Below, in pieces: positions 41,269-64,000 of a stretch of 64,000 bases of DNA. The number at the start of each line of letters is the position of its first letter. The stretch's first letter is position 1. The notes below the pieces were generated by a model that saw nothing but the letters and a program-made list of their open reading frames with translations, had not been told where the DNA came from and searched no databases. The DNA comes from Ostrinia nubilalis (lineage: Eukaryota > Arthropoda > Insecta > Lepidoptera > Crambidae). Both the position numbers and the translations under genes were made by a program. The DNA lies in assembly GCF_963855985.1 (NCBI RefSeq), contig NC_087111.1:8127001-8191000 (forward strand), given 5' to 3'.

Positions 41269-41732
41269 TTATCTCTGGAACTGCAGGGGACAGATTCGGA
41301 GGCCTAGGACGTCTTTTCCGATTTCGGCGACTCCGCAAATGGGGCATAGTTTTCCTTTGTGTTCCGGCATGAAGGAAGCGCCGCAAAGGGAGCATTTTTC
41401 TTCGGGTTTTCCTCTGTAGATGGGTTTGTAACTGATTCCGCAGATGCTGAAAGGGTTGTGTTCGTCGTATAGAAGTTGGTGTTCGTCTGTGGGTGTTTTT
41501 TCGCAGGCTTGGAGGATCTTTCGGGCTTGCTGGGCGACTTCGGGACGAGGGCCGAGTTCTAGGAGTCTTCGGGCGAAGGAGGCGGCAGTTCTGAAGTTCT
41601 TGAGTTTGAAGAACATGTTGAGAGCAGTTCTCAGGGTCAGGATCTGGTGAACAGGCTGCAGCATGCAGTGTGTGAAGTAAGCGGCCATTTCGCACGTGCG
41701 CTTCTGCTCTTCGAGCGTGTTTTTGGGCATCG
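41269..41732 (-). CDS. COPA: COPA last exon (C-terminal domain)
   Basis: Acceptor cttccag, stop TAA at 41271-41269. It encodes [20 protein letters not shown] through [20 protein letters not shown] and the zinc-ribbon-like CSLCGASF / CPICG cysteine pairs to LQFQR. In this gene the second pair CPICG is intact, so the Cys4 arrangement is complete. Confidence 0.95.
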
Positions 41733-44700
41733 CTGGAAGAGAAACGGTTTTTGAGTACATTATGTTCAGTAATCATCATTTTCCCCTGGTAAATTGGAAA
41801 GAGTCATGTACTAACTAGCAGTAGAGACTTTTGATGATGATATTCAGTAATGGTAATTACTAATTCTGGAAATGGTTAAAAATCAAATTACTTGAAATGA
41901 TGGTCTAAGTATAGTATTGTCATGTGCAATAGTATCGATACTATCTTAAATATCTTCGAGGTTAATTAACTATGGATATCACTATGTTTGCACAACACTA
42001 AACTCACCCTTTCTGTCTGTCTCCATGCGAAGTCCCAGCAAATATTCCCGGCATACAGTCAACAGTTGCTGTGCTTCAGTGAGCTCTGGCTTGGCATCGA
42101 CATGCAGTAGTGGCACGCACTGTACTATGCGCTAGTTTTGTCGAGGCCAACTATCGACAGTGAAACTTACTATCTAACACTCACGTTGCGGGTCCTATGA
42201 CAGATTAACTTGCCCCCGGGACAAACTTGACCTTCACTGGTTGTTTTTTGGCGGGCAAGCTGTAGATCCTGGCTACACAGGAGTTGCAGCGGTGGGAACG
42301 AGAGGTGGGAATAGTCCCGTATCTGACACTCACCCTTTCTGTCTGTCTCCATGCGTAGTCCCAGCAAATATTCCCGGCATACGGTCAACAGTTGCTGTGC
42401 TTCAGTGAGCTCCGGTTTAGTATCGACATGCAGTAGTGGCACGCACTGCACTATGCGCTGCAGCTTGTCGATGGCGTCGGTGAATTTCCCGGCGGTGGTT
42501 AACTGGTAACACTGCTGTAGCTGGTTCACTAGGTCGTTGAGTTTTAGCGCTGGAAAAGGGATAAGATATTTAGAAAAGAAAAGTCTTAGAACAACAAGTA
42601 TTTTAAAAAACTAAAAATAATCAGTGGGTCTACACAAAGTGCACATTATAATCGCAAACCAGTCGAAAAATGGTCGAAAGGCCTTTTTTTGTATGGAGTT
42701 ATGATTATGACGGACTCGATTTTTGATTCGATCAAAAAGTGCAACTTGTCTAGGGGGGCAGGAAACAAGACAGTGGCAGACAAGCATTTTATATTAAAGT
42801 TTTGACTTATAAAGTAATGAAACTATATTTCAGAAGGCAATTATAAATTAATTCAGTTCCTTTTCGTTGGGTCAAGCAAGGCACAATTTTCGTGGGTGCA
42901 ATTTATTGCAGGTAATAGAAATGACACCAAACATTTTACTGAGTTTACTTTGTAATTTTAGATTTTATAGCTAAAATTTGGATTTTATTTTGATTAACAG
43001 ATAATAATTGAACAGCAGTTAGAGCTAAGCACTGGATTCTTATGTAGTTGTAATAAATGCTATGCAACAAAAGTATATAGTCTGATGTGCCATCTGTGCC
43101 TTGGAATTATTGTTTTAACTTGTCAACTATCAAATTCCAATAAAATTCATAATGGCGCAAGTTCACTATGCGGGAAATTGGCCAAGACGTAATAGTGTGA
43201 ACACCATCTCGGTTACTGTCTCCTTCCCCCACCCGTGCGTCGGTACTTCGGAGTCCAGGCTAGCGCTTCGGTTTAGGCAATTTTCCGTAGTGTACTTGCG
43301 CCATAACAGTACTGGTAATAATATCATACAGTATTGTAACTTCATATAACCAGACGAAACGCGAGCTTTCCTTCGAATTTCAAATCTCGGGATGCGGTCG
43401 AGATGCAAAAGTCAGGGGTGTCGCGAATGTGCCGCAGTAACGAACGGACGTCGGTGGCCTTGTGTGAAAATGACTAGTGATTGAATTTGACTGGCCGTCT
43501 TTTACGGTCAAATTGGTCAAAACTAGTCATTAGCTGTCAAAAATGGTCATTTTCAGTCAGTATGATTTGAAATGAAAATTATATTGTATAAAACCAGCTT
43601 TTGCACTTGACTTCGCCCGCCTGAAAAGTATAGTAAGTGGTAACTGGTCATTAAAATTAGTAAAGTTTCAAAATTATTTTAGTAGTTTTTTTTTAATAAA
43701 TCTACTAAGCACAAAACAACACGCATTTTTATCATATGCCATTCACAAAGTATTTTCTTTGTTTAAATTAAAAATAAATTACAATCACAAAACATTCACA
43801 AAACTAGATAGAAATTCTAAATCGGCAGATGTAATTAAAATGGGTACTGAAGGTGGGCAGTCCTATCGCATGTTGTCATACCGTGACGTACCGCGCGGCT
43901 GTTGACATTTATTTCAATAATATGGCCGAGTTGGAATACTGGATAGATAGTATTACCGTGACAGTACTAACTTATAACAGGCAGCAGGTCCTTCCCACTA
44001 GCCTCCTTCCAGTTGCGATGCAGGTGCGCGGTGAGCGGCGGCACGCTGGCCAGCGCTCCGAACGTCACGTGCGAGCGAGACAGCATGCCCAGGAACGTCT
44101 CCAGGTACGGCTCGAAGTTCACCACGCCCACTTGTTCGTTCAGAAGCCTGGGGATATGTTAATTGTTGATTTTGAACCCTATTTTGAGGGTATAAAGTCT
44201 AAAGGATGTTTAGAAAATTAGATAATTGAAGGGTCATCATGCTTGAAATGTTTCGAGGCATGACATAAAGTTGACCACGCCCACTTGTTCGTTTAGAAGC
44301 CTGGGAATATATTTGAAAATTGTCAGGGAGGTAGTTTAGAGCCAGGAGAAGGACATAGGATACTTTTATCCCGTTCGAAATTAAAAAAAAAGTCTGCTTA
44401 TTTATTTTTTTATCTGCTTATTAAGGCGGAACAAAGTTCGCCGGGTCAGCTAGTATGTATTATTTGAAACAATTGAAATGTGATGTCACGAAACTTAGGA
44501 CCCCTCCCACCCCTTGTCACACTTTGTCGACCCCCTCCCCCCCTTTACGTGTGACGTACTTTATGGATGACCCCTAAATTGGAAATCACTTTATTAAAAA
44601 GACACTTCATTCTGGTCTTAAAAACTTAATTAATTTTAAATTATCTGTAAATTACGATTTTTGCTCGCATTGTAATTGAAAAAGTAGTTTATTTGAGTTG

Positions 44701-47700
44701 ACAAAATAGTGACGTCACTTGCTTGTAGTGCCATACAACATCTATGGGAGTTTCCTTTTGACAGTTTTAAAAAGTACGTCAATTGATTGGTGTTGTCAAC
44801 ATGTATATTGGTGTTAGTTTGATTTTAAACCTTATAGTAAAGATATGAAGCTCAAAATGCGTTGAGAAAATCGACATTTGAAGGTTCATCATGCTTAAAA
44901 TGTTTCGAGGAATGGCATATAGTTGACCACGCCCACATGTTAATTCATCACACTGGGAAATGTTTCATGATAATGCAACCGATTTCGAACCTTATGTTGA
45001 AAACATTATGTTCAGAATACGTTGAGAAATCAATCTTCAGTCTACCCGCGACCATGACTCGTGCAACTGAGTTGAAACGAGGGTAAATATCTTATTTACC
45101 GTTATAAAAGATTTGTTGTAAAATCCCGTGGAGTGATAATTTTACGTTGAGAAACTTCGTCATTTTGGGGTAGGTTAACTTGCTTTCGGATGTATATACA
45201 AGCTGTGATGAACTGATAAATAAAACTAAGTAAAACGCTTATCAACAACTCAATTAGTTGAAAGCGAGAAGCGAGACACACTTTGAACCTTACTTCTTGA
45301 ACCTAAGTTTCAAAATCCAAATATATTTTTATCTAAGTGTAATAGTCACCTGAAAGCAATCTCAAACTGTCCAGTAGCAACGTGGTCGTGCGCCGTCCGC
45401 AGCTTGGGCGACATGGCGGCGCTAATCCCACGCGTGGGCGCCACAAAGTATGTCGACGACTCCTCGCCGCCGTCGATGTCCGCTGAAAAAGTGAAATTTT
45501 ATTGTTACTTGATAAAATATTTAGTACAATACAATCTACTCTGTTTTGTATCTCTTTTTCAGTCACTGTTGATCGTAGCTTCGAATTCATGCTCCTATTA
45601 TTACAAAACAGTTAAACGCGTGATGGACACAATTTAAAGTAATGATTTATTTATTTATTTAAAATCTTTATTGCACACCTAAAAATACAGTGGTACAACA
45701 TGCGAGCTTAATGCCATGTGGCATTCTCTTCCAGCTAACCAGAAAATTAAACAAAACAGAGAATTTAAGTACCTAGGCGGTGCAAAATAACTTTTTGTTA
45801 TAAGGGAGTTGAAATTTTTTTAAACCTGCAAAAAGCGATTGCCTTGCCGGGCGACTGCTTTGACCTTTGGGCTACAGAGACACTGACGAAACCCAACGGA
45901 AGTTTAGTGTTTTTTAAATTATTACATACATCAATTTCAGTCGTACACTTTGGCGACAGTCGAGTTTCAATTATGGGAACAAGATGTAGAAAAATGATTG
46001 TTATCTTATTACAATTAAAATAGGGTATTTGACACCACCAATCAATTGACGTACTTTTTAAAACTGTCAAAACGACACTCTCCCATAGATTTTGTACGGC
46101 AATACTAGCATGTGACGTCACAATTTAATAAACTCAATGAAAATACTTTTTTCAATTATAATGCAACCAAAAATCGTAATTTACAGGTAATTAAAAATTA
46201 ATTAAGTTTTTAAGACCAGAAAGAAGTGTCTTTTTAAAATAGTTGTGCTTTAGAATTATTGGGAAATGGTGTCAAATACCCAATTGTAGCTCATAAGTAG
46301 GTATATAACTCACCAGAGACAGGGGCAAGTTCCTCGGGCAACTCCAGGTCTTCATCGCCCACGTCCCAGCCGCCGTCGTCACACGCGTCTTCCATAACTT
46401 CTTCTCCATCACCGTCCTCCTGGAAATTAAATACGATTATGAAGTTTACATCTACGCAGTCAAATTGAGATAGATTATTTAAATTATGTTTGTTTTCAGT
46501 CTACCCGCGGCCTAAGTTTACAATAGCTTATTTATTATCAAATAGCACCAAGTGCGTGGCAAAGCCTTGAAGCGTTTTATGGAGTTTACAGCTAGAGATG
46601 AAACGGATATCCGGTAACTATCCGGTAGGCCGGATATCCGGCCTAAATTTACTATTCGGCCGGATACCGGAAATTAAGAAACTACGACAATTTCCTATTA
46701 ATAAAATGAAATACATTAATCTTTGAGGTAAATATCAATAATATGGCAAAACGTTACAAAAAAGCCATTTAAGGCCTTTCAAAACTAATTTCTTTTTCTG
46801 GGCTATTCACTCTTATGACGAATATATTGCGAAATAAAATAGGCGATTTTTTTTTCACTGATGGTCTGATGACATGATGCAACTAATTACATATTCGTTA
46901 TTCAATCACCCACTCACGATTGCAACCGAAATTGAATTGATCTGCCCCCTAGACAAGTGGCAAAATCTGACATTCTATCGGACGGTTTCGATTTTCGAAA
47001 AGTGTGACTAGTCTAGTCTACTATAGGTCTACCAGAATCTCATGGCAAACAAAAATATTGGAAAAGTGTGTTTTTCATATGGCAATTGTCTATGGTTTAA
47101 TTGTCACCTGTCAAAGAAAATTATGACATCTGTCAGCCGCTGCAAAAATTTTGTAATCTCTTCTTGACTATTTGTTATTTTTGTGAAAAAGTCGAAAAAG
47201 CTCAAGCAAGTCATATTGTTTTCAATGTGAATTGTAAAATAAGGCATAATTCAAAGTCAATCTTTGATTATAAGCGCGTCGTCGAGTTGACAGTAAGTTG
47301 GACTGAAATGTTTTGATACATTTAGTTTATTATTACCCAACTACGTCACACACAAGGAGGGTTATGTTTTTTATATTATTCTTAATAGCTGCTTTATCGG
47401 GGTTTTCAGGTATATCTCACAAATTGGTGCAGAGGAATGGTCAAAATGTTATGACCATGTAAAGAAAATTGAAAAAGATTTCATCTCTTTATCTTGATCA
47501 TCTATTGAAGAACAAGAAATTGCAAGTGGAGTTCTTAGAATCGTTTTCTTGTTCTGAATGAAGTGATAAGTTAAAAGTATGATGCATAATAAAATTAGTT
47601 ACTTAAAGTAATAATACGATTAATTTTTTTTCAAGACATTTTCCTATGTTAAAAACCCGATGTATAACAACATTCTTCATACACATACCTACCTAAAATG

Positions 47701-50700
47701 TATATTCTTACTTCATGTTCATTAATACTAAAGTCATAAAAGTAAAAAATTAAACAGTATCAAGATCGTTTATTCCAATTTCCCCAGTATTGCTCTCAAC
47801 AAAGTTTATTTTCCCTATTTGCCATGAGATTCTGGTACACCTATAATAGACCCACTGATCGCGTTCGAAGCACCTGTGCGGCGCTAAACTCGTCACAACA
47901 TGCAACGAGACAATGGGCCAACTATGGGAGATGTGTGGATGGTGGTATACCTTAGCCAGCACGTCGTCGTCGTCGCCCCAGGCGCCCGCAGCTTCTAAAG
48001 GCTCGTCGCCCACGGAGAGACTCCTGGAGGCGTGTGGATGGTGGTATACCTTAGCCAGCACGTCGTCGTCGTCGCCCCAGGCGCCCGCGGCTTCTAAAGG
48101 CTCGTCGCCCACGGAGAGACTCCTGGAGGCGTGTGGATGGTGGTATACCTTAGCCAGCACGTCCTCGTCCCAGGCTCCCGCAGCTTCTAAAGGCTCGTCG
48201 CCCACGGAGAGACTCCTGGAGGCGTGTGGATGGTGGTATACCTTAGCCAGCACGTCGTCGTCGTCGCCCCAGGCTCCCGCGGCTTCCAAAGGCTCGTCGC
48301 CCACGGAGAGACTCCTGGAGGCGTGTGGATGGTGGTATACCTTAGCCAGCACGTCGTCGTCGTCGCCCACGGCCGCCGCGCCCACACCTCTTAGGCTGGT
48401 TTTAGTATCACGCGGACCGTCAGTGCGGATCGCTCCGCACAGCCGATCTATATGAACTGCTAGGGAGCGAGCGGTTCCTGCGGACCGCATTACTCTAAAA
48501 ACACTCCCTAGAAGTTTGTACAGGTGGGCTGTGTGGAGCGGATTCGCACTGACGGTCCGCGTGACACTAAAACCAGCTTTAGGCTCCTGGAGGCGTGTGG
48601 ATGGTGGTATACCTTAGCCAGCACGTCGTCGTCGTCGCCCCAGGCGCCCGCGGCTTCTAAAGGCTCGTCGCCCACGGAGAGACTCCTGGAGGCGTGTGGA
48701 TGGTGGTATACCTTAGCCAGCACGTCGTCGTCGTCGCCCCAGGCGCCCGCGGCTTCTAAAGGCTCGTCGCCCACGGAGAGACTCCTGGAGGCGTGTGGAT
48801 GGTGGTATACCTTAGCCAGCACGTCGTCGTCGTCGCCCCAGGCGCCCGCGGCTTCTAAAGGCTCGTCGCCCACGGAGAGACTCCTGGAGGCGTGTGGATG
48901 GTGGTATACCTTAGCCAGCACGTCGTCGTCGTCGCCCCAGGCGCCCGCAGCTTCTAAAGGCTCGTCGCCCACGGAGAGACTCCTGGAGGCGTGTGGATGG
49001 TGGTATACCTTAGCCAGCACGTCGTCGTCGTCGCCCCAGGCTCCCGCGGCTTCCAAAGGCTCGTCGCCCACGGAGAGACTCCTGGAGGCGTGTGGATGGT
49101 GGTATACCTTAGCCAGCACGTCGTCGTCGTCGCCCACGGCCGCCGCGCCCACACCTCTTAGGCTGGTTTTAGTATCACGCGGACCGTCAGTGCGGATCGC
49201 TCCGCACAGCCGATCTATATGAACTGCTAGGGAGCGAGCGGTTCCTGCGGACCGCATTACTCTAAAAACACTCCCTAGAAGTTTGTACAGGTGGGCTGTG
49301 TGGAGCGGATTCGCACTGACGGTCCGCGTGACACTAAAACCAGCTTTAGGCTCCTGGAGGCGTGTGGATGGTGGTATACCTTAGCCAGCACGTCGTCGTC
49401 GTCGCCCCAGGCGCCCGCGGCTTCTAAAGGCTCGTCGCCCACGGAGAGACTCCTGGAGGCGTGTGGATGGTGGTATACCTTAGCCAGCACGTCGTCGTCG
49501 TCGCCCCAGGCGCCCGCGGCTTCTAAAGGCTCGTCGCCCACGGAGAGACTCCTGGAGGCGTGTGGATGGTGGTATACCTTAGCCAGCACGTCGTCGTCGT
49601 CGCCCCAGGCGCCCGCGGCTTCTAAAGGCTCGTCGCCCACGGAGAGACTCCTGGAGGCGTGTGGATGGTGGTATACCTTAGCCAGCACGTCGTCGTCGTC
49701 GCCCTAGGCTCCCGCGGCTTCCAAAGGTTCATCGCCCACGGCCGCCGCGCCCACACCTCTTAGGCTGGTTTTAGTATCACGCGGACCGTCAGTGCGGATC
49801 GCTCCGCACAGCCGATCTATATGAACTGCTAGGGAGCGAGCGGTTCCTGCGGACCGCATTACTCTAAAAACACTCCCTAGAAGTTTGTACAGGTGGGCTG
49901 TGTGGAGCGGATCCGCACTGACGGTCCGCGTGACACTAAAACTTTTAGTTTTTGATTCTGTTTAGTATTGTGTTAATATTGTTTTCTTTTTTTGTTTTGT
50001 TTTTTTTTCTCTCTCTCTCTTTTTTTGTGATCACCGTCCATAACGCCCCCTGTTGCGCGCCTTCTTGGCTGGTAGCCTCAATAAGGTCCCAGTCAAGAGG
50101 GCGCGCAATCCGCAATCTTCATCGTGTTGGTTCCCGCTGAAAACCAGCTTCTCGACATGGGGCTTGTTATGTCGCGAATATAGCTGAGCGGACGCCTCTT
50201 CAGCATAGCTTGTAGTTTAATGTTATAATTATGTACTGTATTTTTATTTTATTTTTCTATGCTGAATAAAGTTTTTTTATTCTTAAAACCAGCTTAAGGC
50301 TCCTGGAGGTGTGTGGATGGTGGTATACCTTAGCCAGCACGTCGTCGTCGTCGCCCCAGGCTCCCGCAGCTTCTAAAGGTTCATCGCCCACGGCCGCCGC
50401 GCCCGCTGCCGCCACCGCGCCCTGTTCGCCCGCCGTCGCTCGGGCCGCGCCCGCTACCTCGAAGAAACTCCTGGGGAACAACGGATTGTTTTGAGACACT
50501 TGGAGATGATACACGACAAAAAAAGGGGGTTTAGACGCATAATGTCAAAAGCGCAAAATGTGAAATCCATAAAAATCTTATTTATTTATGTTTTTTTATC
50601 CTATTTTAATTTTGTTGAATAGTTTACCCGCAGTAAAATACGTAGTTAAGTTAGGTTAGATTTAAAATTTGTATGGATTTGACATTATGCGCTTTTGACA

Positions 50701-53700: not shown

Positions 53701-56700
53701 CTTTTTCACATCTCCCAGCAACAACGCCCCTTAGAACTGCGCAGGCGTTGCAATACCGACCTTATTTCTATAAAAATAGAGTACATAATCACCTGTCCAG
53801 CATTCTTCAGCAGTCGTATCCTCTCTTTCACATCTCCCAGTAACAATGCTCCCTGGAACTGTGCGGAGACATCTTTCCTGATCTCTGCGATCTTCATCAT
53901 CTTGCGAAGCTTCTCGAGGTTGCCCGTGATGAGGTATAGGAATGAGAGCTTGTCGAAGTTCTTGGTACGCTGGTAGCACATCTCGACGATCTGCGGATAA
54001 AAATTGTATTAGAAGCTACATTAAACTGAAATCAGACTTGTATAAACCAAGACACATAAGACAAATATCCCCTTATTACAAAAAGTTAGACTCTGGTTGA
54101 TCTCTCTCTGGTTTAAATTGACATTTGGTATGGAAATGTCATTTTAAACCAGAGTTCGTCCCAGGTTTAACTTTTTGTAATAAGGCCCATAATGTCGTAT
54201 AGTGAAACAGGGTGAAAAAACCTATCAGGAAAGCGAGTAGCACGTTTTTACATCTTGACGAAAATTTTTATTTTAGGAAACATGAAGATCTTCCAGATCT
54301 TCCTCTCCATGGCATGCCATGGCCATGCTATGGTCAAAGTAAAAATAATAATTTTACAACGAAATTAAGAAAGTTTTTTCTCAGGAATAATACTACAGCA
54401 TGCTAATAAAATACAGGAACAATGTTAACATACATAGACATTGCGTGTTAAGAAAATTTATATTTTTCTTCTCGAAAAATCGCGGAACTTATGCACTGTC
54501 GCTATATTAGACAACAGAAACAGATACACAGAGGGCGCCACATGACCACATCAAGCTTAACACTATAGTATCTTTTGTAGTTGTAATAGGAACTATTTTG
54601 CAACAAAATTGTAAGTTTTATGTGCTGTCGACTGTACATTGGGAAATTAATCGAGAAAACGGTATAAATTACATCCAATTCATCTTAAATTGATGACTCA
54701 CCTGGTGATTGCCGGTGGCCAAAGCGGACTGTGCCAGTTTGTCCCACGCGTCGGGCTCGTCGAGGCTCTTGGCAGCTTCCAAAGCCACCTCTATGTTCCC
54801 GCACTGCAGTGCTAAGGAGAGACGGGTCCGGGCGTCTTTGACGAAGTGTAGTGCCACTTCTGGGTAGCCTGGATGCGAAAATAGTTGTTATTACTAGCGT
54901 CGTAAAGACTATTATTCAAGAGACGAGTCACTTCTGGGTATTACAGCCCTAAAGACTATTATTAGATAGTTTTCTATCTATGTTGCCGCACTGCAGTGCT
55001 AGGGAGAGACGGGTCCGGGCGTCTTTGACGAAGTGAAGCGCGACTTCTGGGTAGCCTGTGAGCGAAAATAGTTGTTAATACTAGCGGTGTAAGGATATTA
55101 TTTGTTTATTTGGTTACGGAGCCTATAATGCGAAAACGACTGCTATTACAAACGCTGAAAAGACAGCCACATCGCGTGCGAAATGGAATGGTATTATTAG
55201 CGCCGCGCTGAATGTGAAAATAGTTATAATTCGTTCGTTTCATTTCAGACAAATGACATCCAATGCTGGAGAAAGGCCTCCCCCAAGGATTTCCACAACA
55301 AACCCTAAAAAGGGCCCATATGTATACTAATAAAGATTTGAATCAAATTGTTTACCTTTTTCTTGCAAATACGCGATGATGCTCTGCCCGACAAGTTTCG
55401 CTGTCCGCACCATGTGTAACACTTGGTCATACTGGCGTGTCACTAACGCCAATTTGAATCTATAACAATTAATATCAGTTGAATCGTCCATAGAAATATA
55501 TTTTTGGATATGATGATGGCAATTTTTATCAGTTGTAAATTTTTAGACCTAAAATTAAGAAGAGCAAAGATCTAACTCTCCAGGAGATGAAAAAATGAAT
55601 TTATTTCTATTGCATTTGAAGCTGAAAGCATAAAAAATTGTTTAGGCTACCAATTAGGGTTAAAAAAAACACGTGTTTAAACGTTTTTTAAAACTCTACC
55701 TCTGAAGGGTTGAAAAGTATATCTATTTTATTTCAAATTTAAGTTAGCCAAGAGCTTAGTTTACTACATAATGAAAACCAAACCAACCTGTACTCAGTGG
55801 GGTCAATATTGAGCACCTTAGGGCGCGCTTCCCGGTCTAAACAGACCACGCGAGCGCCCGCCTCGTTGGCGACCACTTTAACTGCGTATACGGGCACGTC
55901 CAGCGTGCGAATGATGCCGTAGTCACTGCAGAAATATTCAATATTTTAAAAACTTGAAAAAAATCAGCCTTATTTTTTTTTTATTTTTTTTTTTATTTAT
56001 TTAATAGGACAACCAACAAGACATACACTGGAAGACAATCAATATTTACAACGTATTTAACTTAATCTAAGTGCTGCCTTAATTATAGGTTGCCACGGCA
56101 TGCAATAGTGGACTTATACATAAACAGTGAAGAGTTTCTTCAGCGAGTATTATTTAGCTGGAATAACATTTCGCCTTAATGGGAATTTGAGGTAAGACCA
56201 GATGGGACTATTCCCACCTCTGCAACTCCTGTGTAACTAGGATCTACAGCTTGACCGCCAATAAAAAACCAACTAGTGAAGGTCAACAGCACGGTAATAC
56301 TATCTATACAGTATTCCAACTCGGCCATATTTTTGAAATAAATGTCAACAGCCGCGCGGTACGTCACAGTATGACAACATGCGATAGGGCTGCCCACCTA
56401 CAGTACCCGGTTTAATGAAGAATGTTCACTAATTTTGTTTTTTAGCTTTCTGTATTCTCTGTTAAAAATAAAAAATACACGTGAAAGAATTATTTCGATA
56501 CGTCAATTAGTTTCCAAGATATTGAATTTTAAAAGTGCGGCCGGCCCGCCATTTTATGCGCGTGACGTCATATTACAGTGACTGGCTCATATTTGTATGG
56601 GTGGAATCATGCAAGCTGAATTAAGACCCACTTCCAGGCAACCGATTAAGCTGAAATTTCGCAAACACATGTGATTTGGATGACCATGCAATATTATGAT

Positions 56701-59700
56701 GACATGGAGCTGATCTGATGATGGAGCTGGAAGGTGGCCATAGGAACTCTATAATAAAACGACTTAAATCCATCGAGTTTGGGTTTGTTCGTTTTGTATT
56801 GACGAGTACTTTAAATCTATATAGTAATCAGGGTCTAATGATGGAGCTGGAAGGTAATTCGCAATAAAACGACACAATCGCATCAAGTTTGGGTTTGGTT
56901 CAATTTGAATTTCTGTGATGGGTCTGGGTGTTAATATGTATAATAAGTTTGTATTTACAAAAAAAAATGTATTTAAGTATGTTTATATCCGTTTTCTAGT
57001 GAGCGGATACTGTGAATGTACGTCACGCGGGGTCACGTGACCGTCGGCGGCACTCAATATTTAAGCGAACTTTGAATGCCTATAAAATCATAACTTCTGG
57101 GTATTTTTGAATGAAATAAAAACTAATGTATTTGTAAATGTAAAAGCCTAACCGTAACATAGGTTTTAAGTGATTTTGCATACCTAGTAACATTCTCAAT
57201 TACATCTGCCTACTTAGAATTTCTATCTAGTTTTGTGATTGTATTTTTTTATTTAGTTAGACAAATAAAATACTTTGTGAATGGAATAGGTTAAAAATGT
57301 ATGTTGTTTTGTGATTAGTAGATTTAATTTAGTAAAAACTACTTAAATAATTTCGAAACTTTAATAATCATAATGATCTGTTACTTTAACCATCAAAAAC
57401 AATACTTGTCAAAAAAACCAAGTCTCGCAACTCAGTTGTTCTACGGTAAAAAGTTGTGAGATCCATGTAATACCAAGTCCAGGCCAGGAAATCTTTAACG
57501 TTTTACATAAATATATTGACTTGGCCATCGCATGAAAACACGTGTAAATTAAATTATTTAGTGCGATGGCCAAGTCAATATATTTATGTAAAACGTTAAA
57601 GATTTCCTGGCCTGGACTTGGTATTACATGGATCTCACAACTTTTTACCGTAGAACAACCGAGTTGCGAGACTTGGTTTTTTTGACAAGTATTGTTTTTG
57701 ATGGGATCTCATTTCTTTTTGTATTTTGTAGACAGCAGTTATGTATCTAGAAAACTGGACCGAAATTGAAAAATTTTACTCGACTTGGCGGTTGCACTAC
57801 CGTGCCCCCAAATATTTTAGTTTTTCCTTGATTCATACACCAAACACTACTTATATTCCAAATTTGAAGCTTCTAGGTCTGCTAGAAGTGCCTTAGAATT
57901 TTGATGATCGGTGAGTCAGTGAGTCAGTGAGTGACAAAATTAAGTAACTTTGACCCGTTATAATTCCTAAACTACTGGTTCAAATTGAATGAAATTTTAA
58001 ATATACCGTGTCTTTACAATGCCTGCATAGCTAATGAAAATTCAGCCTTCTAGTTTTATCCACAACGAAGTTACAGGCAGTCGAAAATGGCCTGAATTGC
58101 TTCGAGAAAAGGATGGTACGGCCGTGCCGCTTTTTTGCTCGACTTGGTGGGGGCACTGCCGTGCCCCCAGATTTCGGGCGGGCGAGGTCGTGGGCAAAAG
58201 CTGATACAATATAATTTTCATTTCAAATCAAACTGACTGAAAATGACAATTTGACTAGTTTTTGACCAATTTGACCGTAAATGACGGTCAGTCAAATTCA
58301 ATCAGTTTTGTCATTTTAAACACTTGGCCACCGCCGTCCATTCGGCACATTCGCGACACCCCCGACTTTTGCATACCGAGCGCATACCGAGATTTGAATT
58401 TGGAAAGAAAGTTCTCGTTTCGTCTGTTTATATGAAGTTACAATACTGTATGATATTATTACCGTGTCAACAGCTAGGGACTGGAATGCGTTGCCTACTG
58501 CTGTCTTTCCCGAAGACTATAATCCGGGCGTTTTCAAGGCGAGAGTGAATAGGCACTTACAGGGCAGATATGTACCATCCTAGACTGCATCCCAGTTAAC
58601 ATCATGCCTTGTTATGCATAAAAAAAAAGTTTGTCCTTATGGCTAGTCGGGCCATTGCTCTGACCGCGAGATATTGGGTAACCTTGAAAAAATTTTCAAG
58701 TTTCAGGGCCTCCGCTAAAACTTGCGCGGGTATACGTATACGTGTTTGTATCGGTAAATTCTTGGCGCGGAGTAATACCTCAGCTACACTACTCGCGAAG
58801 TTGGTCGAAGTTGATTGAAGTAGATAGTGTGGATACGCACTTCACTTCGCTTCAAGTAACCTTGGCTCGCCTCGGCAGACTTCCGAAAGTTGTCCATATT
58901 AGTTTAGGGTTACAGTGTCCTTGCCAGAGTAAAACGACCTTTTTAAACTAACTCTAGATAGTGTGGACATGCACTTCGCTCCGCTTCGAGTAATCTCGCC
59001 TCGCCTCGCCAAACTTCCGAAGGTTCTCGACATTAGCTGATTTGCTCCGCTTCGAGTAATCTCGCTTCGCCCGACTTCCGAAGGTTGTCACTATTAGCTG
59101 AGGATTATAATAATTATGCTTGCCAGAGCAAAATGACCTTTAAAACTAGTACTTAAAGCATAAAACTACTCACCCGTCCTTGCAGCAGTACTTGATATGA
59201 TTCGCCGTGGTGTAAATGAACACTGGTTGCGGCGTGGAGTCGTCGAAGCTTCTTAGAGTAGAGGCTGACGGTGTGCCAGAGCAAAATGATCTTTAACACT
59301 AGTAAATAAAGCATAAAACCACTCACCCGTCCTTACAGCAGTACTTGATATGGTTGGCCGTGGTGTAAATGAATACTGGTTGCGGCGTGGAGTCTTCGAA
59401 GCTTCTTAGAGTAAAGGGTGACGGTGTGCCAGAGAAAAAGGACCTTTAAAACTTCCCATTAAGACACAAAACGACTCACCCGTCCTTACAGCAGTACTTG
59501 ATATGGTTGGCCGTGGTGTAAATGAATACTGGTTGCGGCGTGGACTCGTCGAAGCTTCTTAGAGTAAAGGGTGACGGTGTGCCAGGGCAAAATGACCTTT
59601 AAAACAAGTACTTAAAGCATAAAACTACTCACCCGTCCTTACAGCAGTACTTGATATGGTTGGCCGTGGTGTATACAGGGTGGAAACGTTAAGTGATCTC

Positions 59701-62700
59701 ACTCGATTATTTCTAAACTATACAAGATATTTAAAAACTGGTTACTGATCCCGAAAGTGCTTCATGAGCTCTTTCTAACGGTACCAATAATATATTACAG
59801 AATAAACTGGATCTATCTGAAAATTCGATGTTTCCAGCTTCCATACTAAATGTATGCCAGACACACAATATTAGAAGTGTATTTTTTTTATTTAATAATA
59901 AACTCTTAAAATAAACTCGTAAATATTGTATTCTTATTTAAAATTATTCATAGAAAACATTGGTTTTAGGCTTTACTTGCTTATTGTCAAGAGATGAGTG
60001 TCATGACTGTGGTAGTACTAAATGTATGGAAGAAGGAAACATTGAATTTTTGGATACATCCAGTTTATTATGTAACCTACTATCGATACCATTGGATAGA
60101 GCTTGTGAAGCACTTTTAGAATCAGTAATCAGTTTTACGATATCATGTGTAGTTTTTAAAATAATGTGACTTTACCAAATGTATGGAAACTGGAAATATT
60201 AAATTATCGGATAGATCCAGTTTATTCTGTAACCTATTATTAATGCCGTTTGATAGAGCTCATGAAGCACTTTCAGGATCAGTAACTAGTTTATTGATAT
60301 CTTATATAATTTAGAAATAATCGAGTGAGATCACTTATCGTTTCCACCCTGTATAAACACTGGTTGCGGCGTGGAGTCGTCGAAGCTTCTCAGAGTAAAG
60401 GGTGACGGTGTGCCAGAGAAAAATGACCTTTAATACTTGTAATTAAGGCACAAAACTACTCACCCATCCTTACAGCAGTACTTGATATGATTCGCCGTGG
60501 TGTAAATGAACACTGGTTGCGGCGTGGAGTCTTCGAAGCTTCTTAGAGTAGAGGGTGACGGTGTGCCAGAGAAAAAGGACCTTTAAAACTTCCCATTAAG
60601 ACACAAAACGACTCACCCGTCCTTACAGCAGTACTTGATATGGTTGGCCGTGGTGTAAATGAATACTGGTTGCGGCGTGGAGTCGTCGAAGCTTCTTAGA
60701 GTAAAGGGTGACGGTGTGCCAGAGCAAAATGACCTTTAATACTTGCAATTAAGGCATAATTTGACTCACCCGTCCTTACAGCAGTACTTGATATGGTTGG
60801 CCGTGGTGTAAATGAACACTGATTGCGGCGTGGAGTCGTCGAAGCTTCTTAGAGTAGAGGCTGACGGTGTGCCAGAGCAAAATGACCTTTAATACTTGCC
60901 AATAAAGCACAAAACTACTCACCCGTCCTTACAGCAGTACTTGATATGATTCGCCGTAGTGTAAATGAACACTGGTTGCGGCGTGGAGTCGTCGAAGCTT
61001 CTTAGAGTAAAGGGTGACGGTGTGCCAGAGTAAAATGACCTTTAAAACTCGCCATTAAAGCATAAAACTACTCACCCATCCTTACAGCAGTACTTGATAT
61101 GATTCGCTGTGGTATAAATGAACACTGGTTGCGGCGTAGAGTCGTCGAATGCCCCGGACTTGACCCGGGCTCCTTCCGTCACGCTGCATAACTGTTCCAG
61201 CTTCTTGGTGCAGAGGGTGACGGTGTGCTTGCCGAGTAAAGCTACTAAAGACATGTCGGCGTTCCAGACTGCGTAGCGGCATTTGGCGATTTTCACCTAA
61301 AATAAATGAAATTGTGTTAAAAACTGTTTTAGCCGTAAACATGCAAATATTTGCCTTACAATCACTAAAAGACAAATTTGTGTACAATAGTGTGTATCTA
61401 TCAGTATTGTCGCGGTTTCTATCTCCGCACCATGCAAACATTTCATTTTAAAACATTTGTGTACTTTAACATAGGTATTTGTTTGTTTTGGTCTAAGTGT
61501 TTTATAATAATGTGTTTGTAATTTAAAAAAAAACTAAGTTTGTTTATATCCGTTGTCCGCAACACGTCTTTGTCACAATTGGAATAAGGTTGTGTTGTTA
61601 ACTTATTGGCCACTTTAGGTGTCACGAACTATTTGACGCTGATTGTACCATGAGCTGATAACCATAGTAAAAGCTCTGATAAGTTTGGGACTGGACGGCG
61701 CAGTGTAAAATGTGGAATAGAATAGAATATAATAGAATAGAATACCTTTATTCAGCATTAACATTTAGGTGCATACATGTACAGATGTTAAATATTACTG
61801 AGCCATGCTGAAAATGCGCCCGCTCAGCGAAAATCGTGACATGACACACACAAGTCGTCAAGTCACGAAGCTGGTTTTCAGCGGGTACCAACATGGGGGT
61901 TATTACGCCAATTAAGCGCCCTTTTGACAGTGACGGTTTATCAATATAAAATATTATAAAATTCGTGTCGATTCGTAACACTTCCTGGCAAAAAGGCGCG
62001 CAACAGAACGGTATTTATTGGAATGGAACGATATTTATTATTATTATTATACTCACGCTGGCAATGGTCCTCTTCTGCTGGACGTCCAACAGCTGCACAC
62101 TATCGGGTTCGCGCAGCAGTAACATACCGGTGCCTGCGTACATGATCTCCTCGCAGGTAGGGGTCGATATCTTCTTTGAGACCTCGTTCTTTAGGTTCTT
62201 GATGACCAGCTGTTGAAGAAGAAGAATTATTTATTTATTCATTCAGGCATACACAACAGGTAACAAATCAAGGGATTCAATGATTAATAAATGTCGATTA
62301 ACGCCCGTTTTCTATATTCAATCCGTGTCTAAATCCGGATTACAACTGTCACGTTGAATTCAGTTTTAGATTATATTTCCAAATTGTTCGATGCATTTAC
62401 ACATTAATATTGTTTAAATAGTCATCATAAACAATATAAAAATGTAAAAACATCAAAAACCGCAGATATTTTGGCCAAAAACATATTAAAATTTGACAGT
62501 GTCAACTGTCATATTCAATCAATGGATTGAATATAGAAATCCAGCATAAGTGATGAAGAAGTGGAATGAAACGAATTTAACCTAAAATAAAAGGAGACAC
62601 CGAAGTTAGAGGGCTTCGTCGTAATAGTAGCACCGTATATTTATCGTAGTAGCAGCTAATACTGTAGCACTGTACCTTCGTTCGTTCGTTTCAGCCAAAT

Positions 62701-64000
62701 GACGTCTACTGCTGGACAAAGGCCTCCTCCAAGGTTTTCCACAATGCACGGTCCTGCGCTGCCCGCATCCAGGCTCTTCCCGCGACCTTTACCAGATCGT
62801 CGGTCCACCTAGTGGGAGGCCTGCCCACGCTACGTCTTCCAGCCCGTGGTCGCCACTCGAGAACTTTTCTGCCCCAACGGCCATCATCTCTACGAGCTAT
62901 GTGCCCCGCCCACTGCCACATGGTTTTAGCAATTCTGCATGTTTAGCAATTTCTTTTAGCAATTTAGCACTGTACCTATGCCGTAGTATTCTCTCTGCGT
63001 CGTAGTATTGATGCTTTGTTTGTGCGTCGTACATAGCCGTAGCTCATACCGTAGCACTGTACCAGTGCCGTAGCACTCCCGCTTACTCGTAGCAGTTTGT
63101 ATACCGTAGGTCAGGGTTTCCCAATTTTTTTTGCCAAGGAACCCTAATTGATTATACTTTTCCTAGCGGAACCCTCGTACTACTCCGCCCGCACGCCCTG
63201 CCCCTCCCTTGTGCGTAAACAAGTCGGTGCGAGCGAACAACGTCGGTCACGAAACGTGGGATAATATTTTTTACGGAACCCTTGCGGCCTTTCCACGGAA
63301 CTCCAGGGTTCTGCGGACCACCATTCGGGAACCGCTGCCGGTAACCTGTTCTTTGCCCCGTTGTGACATTTTGTTACAAAGCATGATGTGTCGTAGCACT
63401 GTATCTATACCGTAGCACTGAATCTATGCCGTAGCACTGTATTTGTGACGTAGCACTGTATCAATGCCGTAGCACGCCCTGTTAATCGTAGCAGTTGGTA
63501 AACCGTAGCACTTACTAACCTGGTTATTCTTCTCCAATGCCGCGAATCTGTTCCTAGCGACCCAGACAGCGGTCGTGGCCTGTCCTCTGGCCGGTTCTGC
63601 GGTGGCGGCCTCGCCTCCGTCTCGCGGCGCGGAGTACAACTCGTAAGAGCATACTGTAGCACTGTATCGCTGTCGTAGCGCTGTATCTATGCCGTAGCAC
63701 GCTTTATTGGTCGTAGGAGTTCTCACTCACCTGATTTATCGTCTCGAGTGCTAAACGTAGTCGTAGCACTGTATTTATGCCGTAGCACTGAATCTGTGCC
63801 GTAGCCGTCTGTACATTAAAGCACTAACTATCCTGGAAATTCTTCTACAGTGGACTGATCCGTTGTTTTGTCGTAGCAGTGGTTTATGCCGTAGCACTGT
63901 ATCTATGCCGTAGCACTGTACCTATGGTTACTAACCTGGTTATTCTTCTCCAATGCCGCGAACCTATTCCTAGCGACCCAGACAGCGGTCGTGGCCTGAC
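41269..64000 (-). CDS. COPA: Coatomer subunit alpha (COPI), C-terminal two thirds; 14 exons, continues past right edge
   Basis: Exons on the minus strand, 5' to 3': 63653-63520, 62209-62057, 61296-61076, 55925-55788, 55459-55356, 54868-54702, 53990-53793, 52150-51969, 50470-50329, 46419-46314, 45482-45350, 44147-43972, 42549-42334, 41732-41269; about 844 codons, every junction in phase. Recognised blocks include [123 protein letters not shown] and the ending [18 protein letters not shown]. The protein scaffolds the COPI coat on Golgi membranes and binds dilysine cargo signals through its N-terminal WD40 propeller, which lies beyond the right edge. Present here are the WD-associated region, the helical solenoid and the C-terminal epsilon-COP-binding domain. 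At least seven exons have tandem partial copies beside them. Confidence 0.93.
42008..42148 (-). pseudogene. Partial copy of COPA exon 42334-42549
   Basis: About 140 bases with the 3' part of the exon ([20 protein letters not shown], then [12 protein letters not shown]) and its gtgagt donor. Upstream a one-base deletion at the IDKLQRI site breaks the frame, and the exon's 5' half and acceptor are missing. It lies just downstream of the real exon. Confidence 0.75.
42246..42322 (-). repeat. Transporter-intron repeat inside a COPA intron
   Basis: On the minus strand gatacgggactattcccacc through ccaggatctacagcttg matches the sub-repeat found in each unit of the transporter array (for example 25783-25855), about 14 kb away in the neighbouring gene. 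Confidence 0.8.
42334..42549 (-). CDS. COPA: COPA exon ([20 protein letters not shown])
   Basis: Acceptor tttccag, donor gtgagt. It encodes [20 protein letters not shown] to [12 protein letters not shown], part of the C-terminal helical domain. Confidence 0.93.
43300..43967 (+). mobile_element. Dispersed element, copy inverted relative to 56278-58470
   Basis: Blocks atatcatacagtattgtaac, tcattttcagtcagtatgat, aactagatagaaattctaa and gacgtaccgcgcggctgttg recur in the same order but inverted between 58470 and 56278. The two copies frame 12 kb of COPA introns and exons. Confidence 0.7.
43972..44147 (-). CDS. COPA: COPA exon ([18 protein letters not shown])
   Basis: Acceptor ccccag, donor gttagt. 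It encodes [20 protein letters not shown] through [18 protein letters not shown]. Confidence 0.9.
44232..44310 (-). pseudogene. 5' fragment of COPA exon 43972-44147, copy 1
   Basis: Acceptor-like cccag followed by gcttctaaacgaacaagtgg and gggcgtggtcaac, then divergence to tttatgtcatgcctcgaaac. This keeps the exon start, not its donor end. Confidence 0.65.
44420..44455 (+). mobile_element. Helitron-like 3' end fragment
   Basis: aaagttcgccgggtcagctag plus T; inverted counterpart at 6060. Confidence 0.35.
44577..44805. mobile_element. Partial inverted copy of the GGGTATTTGACACC MITE
   Basis: Matches 46023-46281 in reverse: ggtcttaaaaacttaattaa, agtgacgtcact and ttttaaaaagtacgtcaatt. Confidence 0.6.
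44875..44965 (-). pseudogene. 5' fragment of COPA exon 43972-44147, copy 2 (degraded)
   Basis: Shares catcatgcttaaaatgtttc, gaggaatggcatatagttg and accacgcccac with the copy at 44232; the acceptor is blurred. Confidence 0.5.
45350..45482 (-). CDS. COPA: COPA exon ([18 protein letters not shown])
   Basis: Acceptor tttttcag, donor gtgact. It encodes [20 protein letters not shown] through [12 protein letters not shown]. The FxxPT and final FEIAF(R) blocks are the alpha-COP pattern between the acidic linker and the C-terminal domain. Confidence 0.9.
45645..45750 (-). mobile_element. LINE-type 3' tail, minus orientation
   Basis: The (attt)n tract and aaatctttattgcacacc, then catgccacatgg-type words, read backwards as a non-LTR 3'UTR with poly-A tail. 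Confidence 0.5.
46023..46281. mobile_element. MITE with GGGTATTTGACACCA termini
   Basis: Exact inverted ends gggtatttgacacca and tggtgtcaaataccc around a 230-base AT-rich interior. It lies in the intron between two COPA exons. Confidence 0.75.
46314..46419 (-). CDS. COPA: COPA exon (acidic linker, [16 protein letters not shown])
   Basis: Acceptor tttccag, donor gtgagt. It encodes [20 protein letters not shown] and [13 protein letters not shown]; the WDVxxEDLELP motif is a hallmark of alpha-COP. Confidence 0.93.
46590..46680. repeat. Short palindrome cluster of ATCCGG units
   Basis: ggatatccgg, ccggtaggccggatatccgg and ggccggataccgg follow each other within 90 bases, a small self-complementary tandem block. 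Confidence 0.55.
47933..48390 (-). repeat. COPA acidic-exon array, block A (5 copies of the 99-base unit)
   Basis: Minus strand units read [20 protein letters not shown] then [13 protein letters not shown], 33 codons each, in frame throughout. One copy has a 9-base deletion ([11 protein letters not shown]). The upstream end reads [16 protein letters not shown], a shortened form of the genuine exon. Confidence 0.95.
48391..48581. mobile_element. MITE between blocks A and B
   Basis: About 40-base terminal inverted repeats ttaggctggttttagtatca and cgtgacactaaaaccagctt with the cggaccgtcagtgcggat block. It has been copied with the array. Confidence 0.85.
48582..49157 (-). repeat. COPA acidic-exon array, block B (6 copies)
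   Basis: Six 99-base units, all in frame. Some use gcgcccgcggc, others gctcccgcggc, in the same order as block A, so blocks A and B derive from one larger duplication with the MITE included (767-base super-unit). Confidence 0.95.
49158..49348. mobile_element. MITE between blocks B and C
   Basis: Sequence essentially identical to the 48391 copy, supporting copying rather than independent insertion. Confidence 0.85.
49349..49759 (-). repeat. COPA acidic-exon array, block C (4 copies, one with a stop)
   Basis: Four units. The one nearest the genuine exon keeps the original gatgaacct spelling and has GCC-TAG-GGC in place of GCC-TGG-GGC, a premature stop near 49704. Confidence 0.9.
49760..50289. 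mobile_element. Third MITE copy, split by a retroposon
   Basis: The MITE runs from 49760 to about 49942, is interrupted by a 341-base insert, and resumes at 50284 with taaaaccagctt. The third copy shows gatccgcactg where the others have gattcgcactg. Confidence 0.75.
49943..50283 (+). mobile_element. Non-LTR retroposon with TAAAAC target duplication
   Basis: Flanked by taaaac on both sides and ending aataaagtttttttattct. It shares cccgctgaaaaccagcttc and atgctgaataaag with 61730-62035, where the same family sits in opposite orientation. Confidence 0.7.
50329..50470 (-). CDS. COPA: COPA exon (acidic linker source of the array)
   Basis: Acceptor ttccccag, donor gtatac. It encodes [20 protein letters not shown] then [20 protein letters not shown]. 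Family members have an acidic, poorly conserved linker at this place. The 3' half is the source of the 15 array copies. Confidence 0.9.
50528..50715. mobile_element. MITE with GGTTTAGGCGCATAATGTC ends
   Basis: ggtttagacgcataatgtca and tgacattatgcgcctaaacc are inverted, with a second internal repeat of cgcataatgtcaa in each arm. It starts 58 bases upstream (on the minus strand) of a COPA exon. Confidence 0.75.
50740..51080 (-). pseudogene. Mixed fragments of COPA exons 51969-52150 and 53793-53990
   Basis: cttcagttgctcggcttcct, tcacctgtccaacttattca, ataatcacctgtgcagcgtt and cttggaaacagcgagtagc are degraded exon-end pieces from two different exons, interleaved with shared intron words (taaaaccgaccttagt). 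Confidence 0.6.
51081..51260. mobile_element. MITE with TAAAGCCTGG ends (complete copy)
   Basis: taaagcctggtctgtaagca and tgctcacggaccaggcttta are inverted ends. The interior contains two inverted blocks gcgacagcaacataattacg. Truncated copies lie in the transporter array (28687, 31167). Confidence 0.75.
51332..51471 (-). pseudogene. Partial copy of COPA exon 51969-52150
   Basis: Keeps the 3' part ([20 protein letters not shown] to NWPLLAVSK) and a gtgagt donor; the 5' part ([12 protein letters not shown]) is absent. Confidence 0.8.
51525..51840 (+). mobile_element. RTE-type retrotransposon fragment
   Basis: Reads [17 protein letters not shown] and the 3' phrase gtccagcagtggacgtcctg with frameshifts; truncated RTE ORF tail. 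Confidence 0.65.
51845..51905 (-). pseudogene. Short copy of COPA exon 51969-52150 end
   Basis: actcacttggacacagcgag and gtagcggccaattcagctgg only, i.e. the last 20 codons with donor. Confidence 0.7.
51969..52150 (-). CDS. COPA: COPA exon ([20 protein letters not shown])
   Basis: Acceptor ccccag, donor gtgagt; ends after two bases of Lys. It encodes [20 protein letters not shown] to [13 protein letters not shown](K). Confidence 0.93.
52380..52560 (-). pseudogene. Degraded copy of COPA exon 53793-53990
   Basis: [14 protein letters not shown] resembles [13 protein letters not shown], but the donor site is destroyed (atgatt) and the frame is changed. Confidence 0.5.
52632..53792 (-). repeat. 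Array of 9 partial copies of COPA exon 53793-53990
   Basis: Donor ends at 52632, 52748, 52866, 52988, 53110, 53268, 53390, 53548 and 53670. Each keeps [23 protein letters not shown] (with variants) and a gtgatt donor, plus intron words such as ataccgacctta. Spacings are 116-123 bases except two of 158, where the copy extends further 5' ([10 protein letters not shown]). No copy has an acceptor. Confidence 0.9.
53793..53990 (-). CDS. COPA: COPA exon ([20 protein letters not shown])
   Basis: Acceptor tccgcag, donor gtgatt, 66 codons in phase 0. It encodes [40 protein letters not shown] and [20 protein letters not shown]. Confidence 0.95.
54070..54186. mobile_element. MITE with CCTTATTACAAAAAGTTA ends
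   Basis: ccttattacaaaaagtta and taactttttgtaataagg are inverted at 117 bases; the second inner repeat actctggtt/aaccagagt adds a stem. Confidence 0.75.
54702..54868 (-). CDS. COPA: COPA exon ([20 protein letters not shown])
   Basis: Acceptor atccag, donor gtgagt. It encodes [20 protein letters not shown] and [20 protein letters not shown] to GNHQ. Confidence 0.95.
54985..55053 (-). pseudogene. 5' copy of COPA exon 54702-54868
   Basis: Acceptor-side piece ([20 protein letters not shown] region) with small substitutions, lying just upstream of the real exon; the donor end is missing. Confidence 0.7.
55232..55300 (-). mobile_element. RTE 3' end scrap
   Basis: catttcagacaaatgacatc and gagaaaggcctcccccaagg match the RTE fragments at 40435 and 62690. 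Confidence 0.5.
55356..55459 (-). CDS. COPA: COPA exon ([20 protein letters not shown])
   Basis: Acceptor gttatag, donor gtaaac. It encodes [20 protein letters not shown] and [14 protein letters not shown]. Confidence 0.95.
55788..55925 (-). CDS. COPA: COPA exon ([20 protein letters not shown])
   Basis: Acceptor ctgcag, donor gttggt. It encodes [20 protein letters not shown] then [18 protein letters not shown], in the WD-associated region. Confidence 0.95.
56195..56262 (+). repeat. Transporter-intron repeat, second copy in COPA
   Basis: gggactattcccacctctgc and ctaggatctacagcttgacc, the same sub-repeat as in the 24763-33198 array. Confidence 0.75.
57390..57704. mobile_element. 315-base near-perfect palindrome
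   Basis: Arms of about 140 bases (ccatcaaaaacaatacttgt and its complement) meet around about 30 bases near 57548-57576. Apart from one or two mismatches (tcagttgttc versus gaacaaccga) the arms are identical. Confidence 0.85.
57911..57935. repeat. GTGAGTCA short tandem repeat
   Basis: gtgagtcagtgagtcagtga, three units of eight bases. Confidence 0.7.
58465..58605 (+). mobile_element. Non-LTR ORF2 C-terminal fragment
   Basis: Reads [20 protein letters not shown] and [13 protein letters not shown] before a stop; the counterpart is at 14855-15010. Confidence 0.6.
59171..61075 (-). repeat. Array of 8 partial copies of COPA exon 61076-61296
   Basis: Copies begin (3' ends on the minus strand) near 59171, 59324, 59477, 59630, 60461, 60613, 60767 and 60920, spaced about 153 bases apart from the insertion in the fourth. 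Each has [17 protein letters not shown] and a gtgagt donor. All share a deletion of about 50 bases between the AAGAAGCT and TCGACGACTC blocks of the genuine exon, which shifts the frame, and none has an acceptor next to it. Confidence 0.9.
59672..60355. mobile_element. TIR element inserted in the fourth array copy
   Basis: tatacagggtggaaacg and cgtttccaccctgtata at the ends, followed inward by the agtgatctcactcgattatt inverted block; TA duplicated at the insertion site. The interior has further mirrored words (ggatctatctg/cagatagatcc-like). No transposase ORF. Confidence 0.75.
61076..61296 (-). CDS. COPA: COPA exon ([20 protein letters not shown])
   Basis: Acceptor attttag, donor gtgagt. It encodes [20 protein letters not shown] and [20 protein letters not shown] to KYCCKDG. 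It is the full-length source of the neighbouring array. Confidence 0.93.
61730..62035 (-). mobile_element. Non-LTR retroposon, minus orientation
   Basis: A (gaata)n tail at 61718-61742, then on the minus strand cccgctgaaaaccagcttc, cgctgagcgggcgc and atgctgaataaagg, the same family as 49943-50283. Confidence 0.65.
62057..62209 (-). CDS. COPA: COPA exon ([20 protein letters not shown])
   Basis: Acceptor caacag, donor gtgagt. It encodes [20 protein letters not shown] and [20 protein letters not shown] through QQKRTIAS. Confidence 0.95.
62309..62539. mobile_element. MITE with TTTCTATATTCAATCC ends
   Basis: tttctatattcaatcc and ggattgaatatagaaa are exact inverted termini, 231 bases overall. Confidence 0.75.
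62690..62935 (-). mobile_element. RTE-type ORF C-terminal fragment, longest copy
   Basis: Minus strand [20 protein letters not shown] through [20 protein letters not shown] to [11 protein letters not shown], the common tail of RTE-type reverse transcriptases. It interrupts the minisatellite. Confidence 0.75.
63112..63337. mobile_element. hAT-like MITE
   Basis: The left end cagggtttcccaat and the right end cgggaaccgctg resemble hAT-type termini (CAGNGGTTCCCAA). The interior is GC-richer than its neighbours, with ggaaccct repeated. The target duplication is not clear. Confidence 0.45.
63520..63653 (-). CDS. COPA: COPA exon ([11 protein letters not shown]...[10 protein letters not shown])
   Basis: Donor gttagt is clear and phase 0. 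The acceptor (ctacag) lies in minisatellite-like sequence, so the 5' limit is less sure. It encodes [20 protein letters not shown] and [17 protein letters not shown]. Confidence 0.8.
63936..64000 (-). CDS. COPA: Second copy of COPA exon end, cut by window edge
   Basis: [22 protein letters not shown] and the gttagt donor again, 416 bases upstream of the first copy. Which copy is the genuine exon cannot be decided because the sequence ends inside this one. Confidence 0.6.

Follow-up and report, generated by a model that had tools for sequence, protein, structure and literature searches.

Why should the exons of one housekeeping gene be accompanied, again and again, by fragments of themselves? 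The question is raised by a stretch of 64,000 nucleotides from the European corn borer moth, Ostrinia nubilalis (C24:8127001-8191000; hereafter the window), in which the COPA gene lies on the minus strand at 41269..64000 with exons e1 (in part) to e14 and continues to window coordinate 72796. The original prediction held that many COPA exons had independently acquired partial tandem copies through a local process of replication or recombination. Exons e2 to e14, each used once, join into an uninterrupted 2400-nt frame, and the COPA frame (799 aa) is 100% identical to the O. nubilalis protein P0001 over the aligned parts. The assembly, ilOstNubi1.1, was built from 44-fold HiFi reads with a QV of 68.8, as given in the accessible part of its report (PMC11851004). 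Since the window derives from a HiFi assembly and the copies are diverged and broken by insertions, an assembly artefact is very unlikely, although such arrays are difficult to assemble and exact copy numbers may be off.

Partial exon copies in COPA

Partial copies lie near 8 of the 21 COPA exons, the same eight for which extra copies had been proposed. One correction concerns 63520, which had been listed as an exon and is itself a partial copy (63520..63650, minus strand, as are all COPA features below) with the 3′ part and the donor; the genuine e1 spans 63933-64130 and encodes residues 368-433, its window part being 63933..64000. A 19-bp minisatellite encloses this copy (63389-63926). The claim that most copies consist of the 3′ part of the exon, its donor and the start of the intron stands for six of the eight exons and fails for e6 (54702..54868) and e12 (43972..44147). 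Copies of these two are of the reverse type, with the end of the intron, the acceptor and the 5′ part of the exon, and lie upstream of it: a single copy of e6 at 54977..55102, comprising 48 nt of intron end, the acceptor and the first 79 nt of the exon, and two of e12 within 44166..44959, one clear (44268-44313) and one degenerate.

Among the donor-type arrays, that of e3 (61076..61296) occupies 59121..60996 and has eight copies with a donor in a 153-bp unit, plus one 32-bp stub, with an interruption at about 59673-60353. Its exon and intron parts have diverged equally, as expected for unconstrained copies, and its junction carries a shared stretch compatible with slippage. The e7 exon (53793..53990) is followed at 52414..53742 by nine copies and a degenerate one (70% identity), its total being nine copies and three older or displaced ones. 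Four copies of e8 (51969..52150) are found at 50721..51904, interleaved with two e7 copies, which contradicts an independent origin of all arrays. Behind e9 (50329..50470), 15 copies with a 99-bp unit extend over 47927..49752, and an inverted-repeat element of about 200 bp was inserted among them and co-amplified into higher-order blocks (48360-48573, 49127-49340, 49729-49942). Because the unit equals 33 codons, a 287-aa frame stays open through 47750-48613 and could be read through on intron retention. The e13 exon (42334..42549) has one copy, with the 3′ part and the donor, at 42002..42133; dispersed element-like sequence starts close behind its donor (42227-42298) and also occurs at 56211-56286 and in many places within 25103-33281, in the array of the neighbouring gene Tret1.

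Identity of the copies to their exon ranges from 70 to 99% in the COPA arrays; many exon-linked copies exceed 90%, intron portions included, and in young arrays most retain an intact donor. Every exon-linked match has the orientation of its exon, 49 of 49 in COPA and 11 of 11 in Tret1 (60 of 60; these are alignments, not copies, and five matches at 68661-68882 are excluded). The array to which these five belong is intron-only and not among the eight linked to exons. An intron-only, pyrimidine-rich array (L005:4817-5365) lies immediately ahead of the acceptor of one of the 5′ exons of COPA.

Exon-end arrays in other genes and contigs

The exon array noted in the neighbouring gene proved to be of the same kind as the COPA arrays (24763-33678). 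The Tret1 frame is 100% identical to the O. nubilalis protein P0121 over the aligned parts. Its genuine third exon (24763..24967, plus strand) is followed at 25465..33678 by 11 near-complete copies without an acceptor, starting about 10 nt inside the exon, together with short degenerate copies of the exon end. A second Tret1 exon, with a predicted end at 40308 and a putative GC donor, has its last 3 nt, together with the donor and the proximal intron, repeated twice more behind it (40305..40714, plus strand, 80-bp unit), the weakest of the arrays that we counted. Use of the arrays as alternative exons was considered for the protein models and rejected: P0001 and P0121 contain genuine exons only, and in these models the copies all fall inside one intron.

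Upstream of COPA, two exons of a gene with an EXS domain and one exon of a gene with a Snf7 domain are likewise amplified (L007:1428-5932; L007:8644 to L008:470; L008:8244 to L025:2290). These are the next two genes, which we take to be XPR1(-like) and CHMP3. Pfam E values are 1.5e-17 and 0.00036 for the two EXS exons, the second under the curated cut-off; for Snf7 they are 8.5e-10 for a neighbouring exon and 0.0074, under the curated cut-off, for the amplified exon. Local repeats cover 39% of the interval from Tret1 to COPA; they are sparse below the window (2 components in 40 kb), and some exist above 8234 kb. A process limited to this stretch of chromosome 24 is ruled out, as arrays are denser there yet found on other contigs.

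The window had been chosen as striking, unlike two gene families that were surveyed irrespective of arrays. A search with the Adaptin_N profile gave 33 matches, corresponding to about 25 exons in intron-bearing genes, four of which have extra local matches (on C2, C5, C16 and C21; 1 of 8 exons in the C21 gene). All four arrays were read, and each opens with the genuine exon and its acceptor, followed by copies of the 3′ part with the donor. The Cpn60_TCP1 profile gave 68 matches for about 53 exons, five of them affected (C7, C12, C16, C27 and C30); four of these arrays were read at the nucleotide level and are donor-side, and the one on C30 was placed by profile coordinates. This count leaves out another candidate on C27 and a terminal exon duplicated in full on C12. 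The latter occurs twice with equal score, 1.86 kb apart and with the exon start included (C12:2767125-2767289 and 2768982-2769146). Altogether, exon-end arrays occur in four adaptin and five chaperonin genes on eight contigs other than that of COPA, and the genuine exon with its acceptor precedes the copies in all nine (eight read at the nucleotide level). Thus 9 of about 78 exons, roughly one in nine, have copies of their own end, and these counts are lower bounds, because profile searches detect only copies long enough to score. Given these arrays in unrelated genes on other contigs, the idea that the process belongs to a single housekeeping gene and the gene beside it is not supported.

To gauge the background, 10-kb stretches were taken at twelve fixed positions; they contained 16 local-repeat components covering about 5% of the sequence. 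Among the 14 inspected, none had a clear link to an exon, and the one at C1:3003649 is ambiguous. This 61-bp array (L013:3649-4115) follows an open frame and carries sequence resembling that behind COPA donors.

Within the window, the 24 exons when placed at random met 5.5 array components on average, whereas 8 were observed, a difference short of significance (p = 0.08). Fewer exons were touched than at random (9, with a random mean of 11.3), and fewer exonic bases were covered (928, as opposed to 1528 at random), because the arrays themselves fill the introns. The only significant test of exon association in the window concerns the founding unit: a unit of 130-200 bp meets an exon with a probability of 0.14-0.18, and 8 of 14 components do so (binomial p = 0.002 at 0.2 and 0.01 at 0.25). 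The preference for the donor side is clear overall, with 20 donor-side arrays against 2 acceptor-side arrays (p = 0.0001; the e7 and e8 arrays, both counted, are only partly independent), and 19 against 2 without the array at 40308. COPA and Tret1 exon 3 alone give 7 to 2 (p = 0.18, not significant), and the two surveys alone 9 to 0 (p = 0.004). Counted units extend past the exon start by at most a few bases, with a rough p of 0.0015 for donor-side arrays only, from unit lengths entered by hand, some of them inflated by insertions.

How the arrays may have arisen

Orientation, head-to-tail order and position beside the source fit the local replication or recombination process originally proposed. 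We consider it reasonably probable that local tandem duplication recurs over exon borders and is filtered by splicing. Head-to-tail duplications straddling exon-intron borders would arise repeatedly, with slippage during replication or a switch of template at short matches as the probable mechanism. A copy with the 3′ part of the exon, its donor and intron, and without a working acceptor, would lie behind the intact exon and an earlier-transcribed donor and leave the mRNA unchanged. Duplications that fall inside an exon, that take in a complete exon with acceptor and donor, or that place an acceptor copy where it is met first would alter the mRNA and mostly be lost. As a donor-side copy would be met second by the splicing machinery and an acceptor copy first, such a filter could produce the donor bias. 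Persisting copies would drift and grow in number through unequal exchange, and the exon, preserved by selection, could seed further copies. The intact frames of the genuine exons, and database proteins made up of these exons only, support this reading, as do the uniform orientation and local position of all exon-linked matches, the leading place of the genuine exon in the surveyed arrays, the equal divergence within the e3 array and units that scarcely pass the exon start.

Near-complete copies have weaker pyrimidine tracts. On C2, the pyrimidine content of their tracts is 0.24-0.35 against 0.76 in the genuine exon; in the XPR1-like gene it is 0.47 in four of five copies and 0.59 in the fifth, against 0.65. 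Weaker tracts fit what would remain once copies with working acceptors had been removed. The filter would not be absolute, however, since all five XPR1-like copies retain the last 5 nt of the acceptor and the copy with 0.59 falls inside the 0.53-0.82 spanned by the genuine acceptors of COPA. Exon ends are also struck more often than the background of 16 components per 120 kb would lead one to expect, an excess that a filter acting on random duplications leaves unexplained.

This last point favours the main rival to the splicing filter, a mutational process aimed at 5′ splice sites, in which breaks coupled to transcription or splicing, or RNA-DNA hybrids behind the donor, lead to a template switch into the exon. 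The 20:2 bias and the recurrence of very short copies, scarcely more than a donor, speak for it as well; the two acceptor-side arrays and the whole terminal exon duplicated on C12 speak against it, as do a breakpoint-to-donor distance that is not fixed and the absence of a general motif, and we think it unlikely. The common breakpoint motif at donors that had been suggested was not found: breakpoints vary between 3 nt and almost the full length of the exon, and the one sequence shared behind donors is no hallmark elsewhere. That sequence, of 28-45 nt, begins 11-16 nt behind the donors of e7 and e8 (53781 and 51954, minus strand) and of the Tret1 exon ending at 40308 on the opposite strand (40325, 40405 and 40673, plus strand). 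When the model is built without the Tret1 instances, these reach 19-25 bits, while nothing else in the window exceeds 10.3; the sequence is therefore common to COPA and Tret1 donors. The e3 match is weak, missing from the list of the joint model and borderline in the gapless model, and its score of 16 compares with 14 for the best of 300 shuffles. Searching the genome less strictly yielded 18 matches, and 3 with a reversed control, 6 of the 18 in known arrays; 11 of the remaining 12 have no local repeat around them, and the sequence was rejected as a general cause. A bolder form of the donor-directed process, in which the 5′ splice site region is a hot spot of this lineage and a process coupled to transcription or splicing repeatedly duplicates the exon end with its donor and the proximal intron in tandem throughout the genome, leaving introns filled with thousands of exon echoes and decoy donors, is likewise a tentative proposal that we doubt.

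Plain minisatellite formation would need no such targeting, with exon anchoring arising as a detection effect, in that a conserved exon partner keeps duplications recognisable for longer. Background arrays are everywhere and the exonic bases of the window are not over-covered, as it would have it; yet it does not predict the donor bias, and many exon-linked copies are more than 90% identical, in their intron parts as well, making this account rather improbable. The longer detectability of exon-anchored copies is nevertheless part of why exon borders seem to be frequent seeds. Retention for a function, for example as decoy donors tuning splicing, could explain the intact donors of young arrays, but the decay of the copies and their position beside unrelated genes make it very improbable. 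Capture of exon ends by mobile elements and their reinsertion nearby is suggested by the element-like sequence behind several donors, such as those of e9 and e13, and appears just as remote: capture by elements would be expected to show element ends, other sites and both orientations, whereas 0 of the 60 exon-linked matches are inverted, all lie near their source, and the copies run head to tail in arrays that elements interrupt and do not bound.

If the rate of the two surveys held genome-wide, the copying of exon ends would be a large and scarcely described way for introns to grow and for decoy splice sites and the material of new exons to arise. It would also be a natural record of the duplications that splicing tolerates, and would permit a direct test of how far selection on splicing and how far mutation have shaped introns. 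Gene models built from short reads risk confusion from near-identical exon ends.

Relation to known systems

The tandem duplication of whole exons, which are often used alternatively, is a familiar phenomenon. The arrays described here resemble tandem duplication and mutually exclusive exons, as covered in the accessible part of PMC9013439, in being same-strand copies of an exon, adjacent to it within one gene. They differ in that the copies are partial, apparently without a working acceptor, and absent from protein models. Complete exons with both splice sites were not among them; near-complete copies occur in Tret1, on C2 and in the XPR1-like gene, one of which may keep its acceptor. In the same part of that paper, Ivanov and Pervouchine report that 0.08% of the exonic bases of D. 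melanogaster have a local homologue at 80% identity (PMC9013439), against about 22% in COPA (824 of 3765), obtained by another method in a gene chosen for its arrays. Intron gain by tandem duplication of coding sequence with a proto-splice site, as set out in the available part of PMC2891723, likewise starts from exon sequence duplicated in tandem together with a splice site, but here the copies sit within the intron that follows an intact exon, and a new intron is not apparent. The literature searched, which mostly lacks subscription papers, yielded no report of donor-side arrays of partial exons. With minisatellites the arrays share head-to-tail units of about 80-400 bp and higher-order blocks, as in e9; they differ in that an exon-intron border serves again and again as the unit, across many genes of a single genome.
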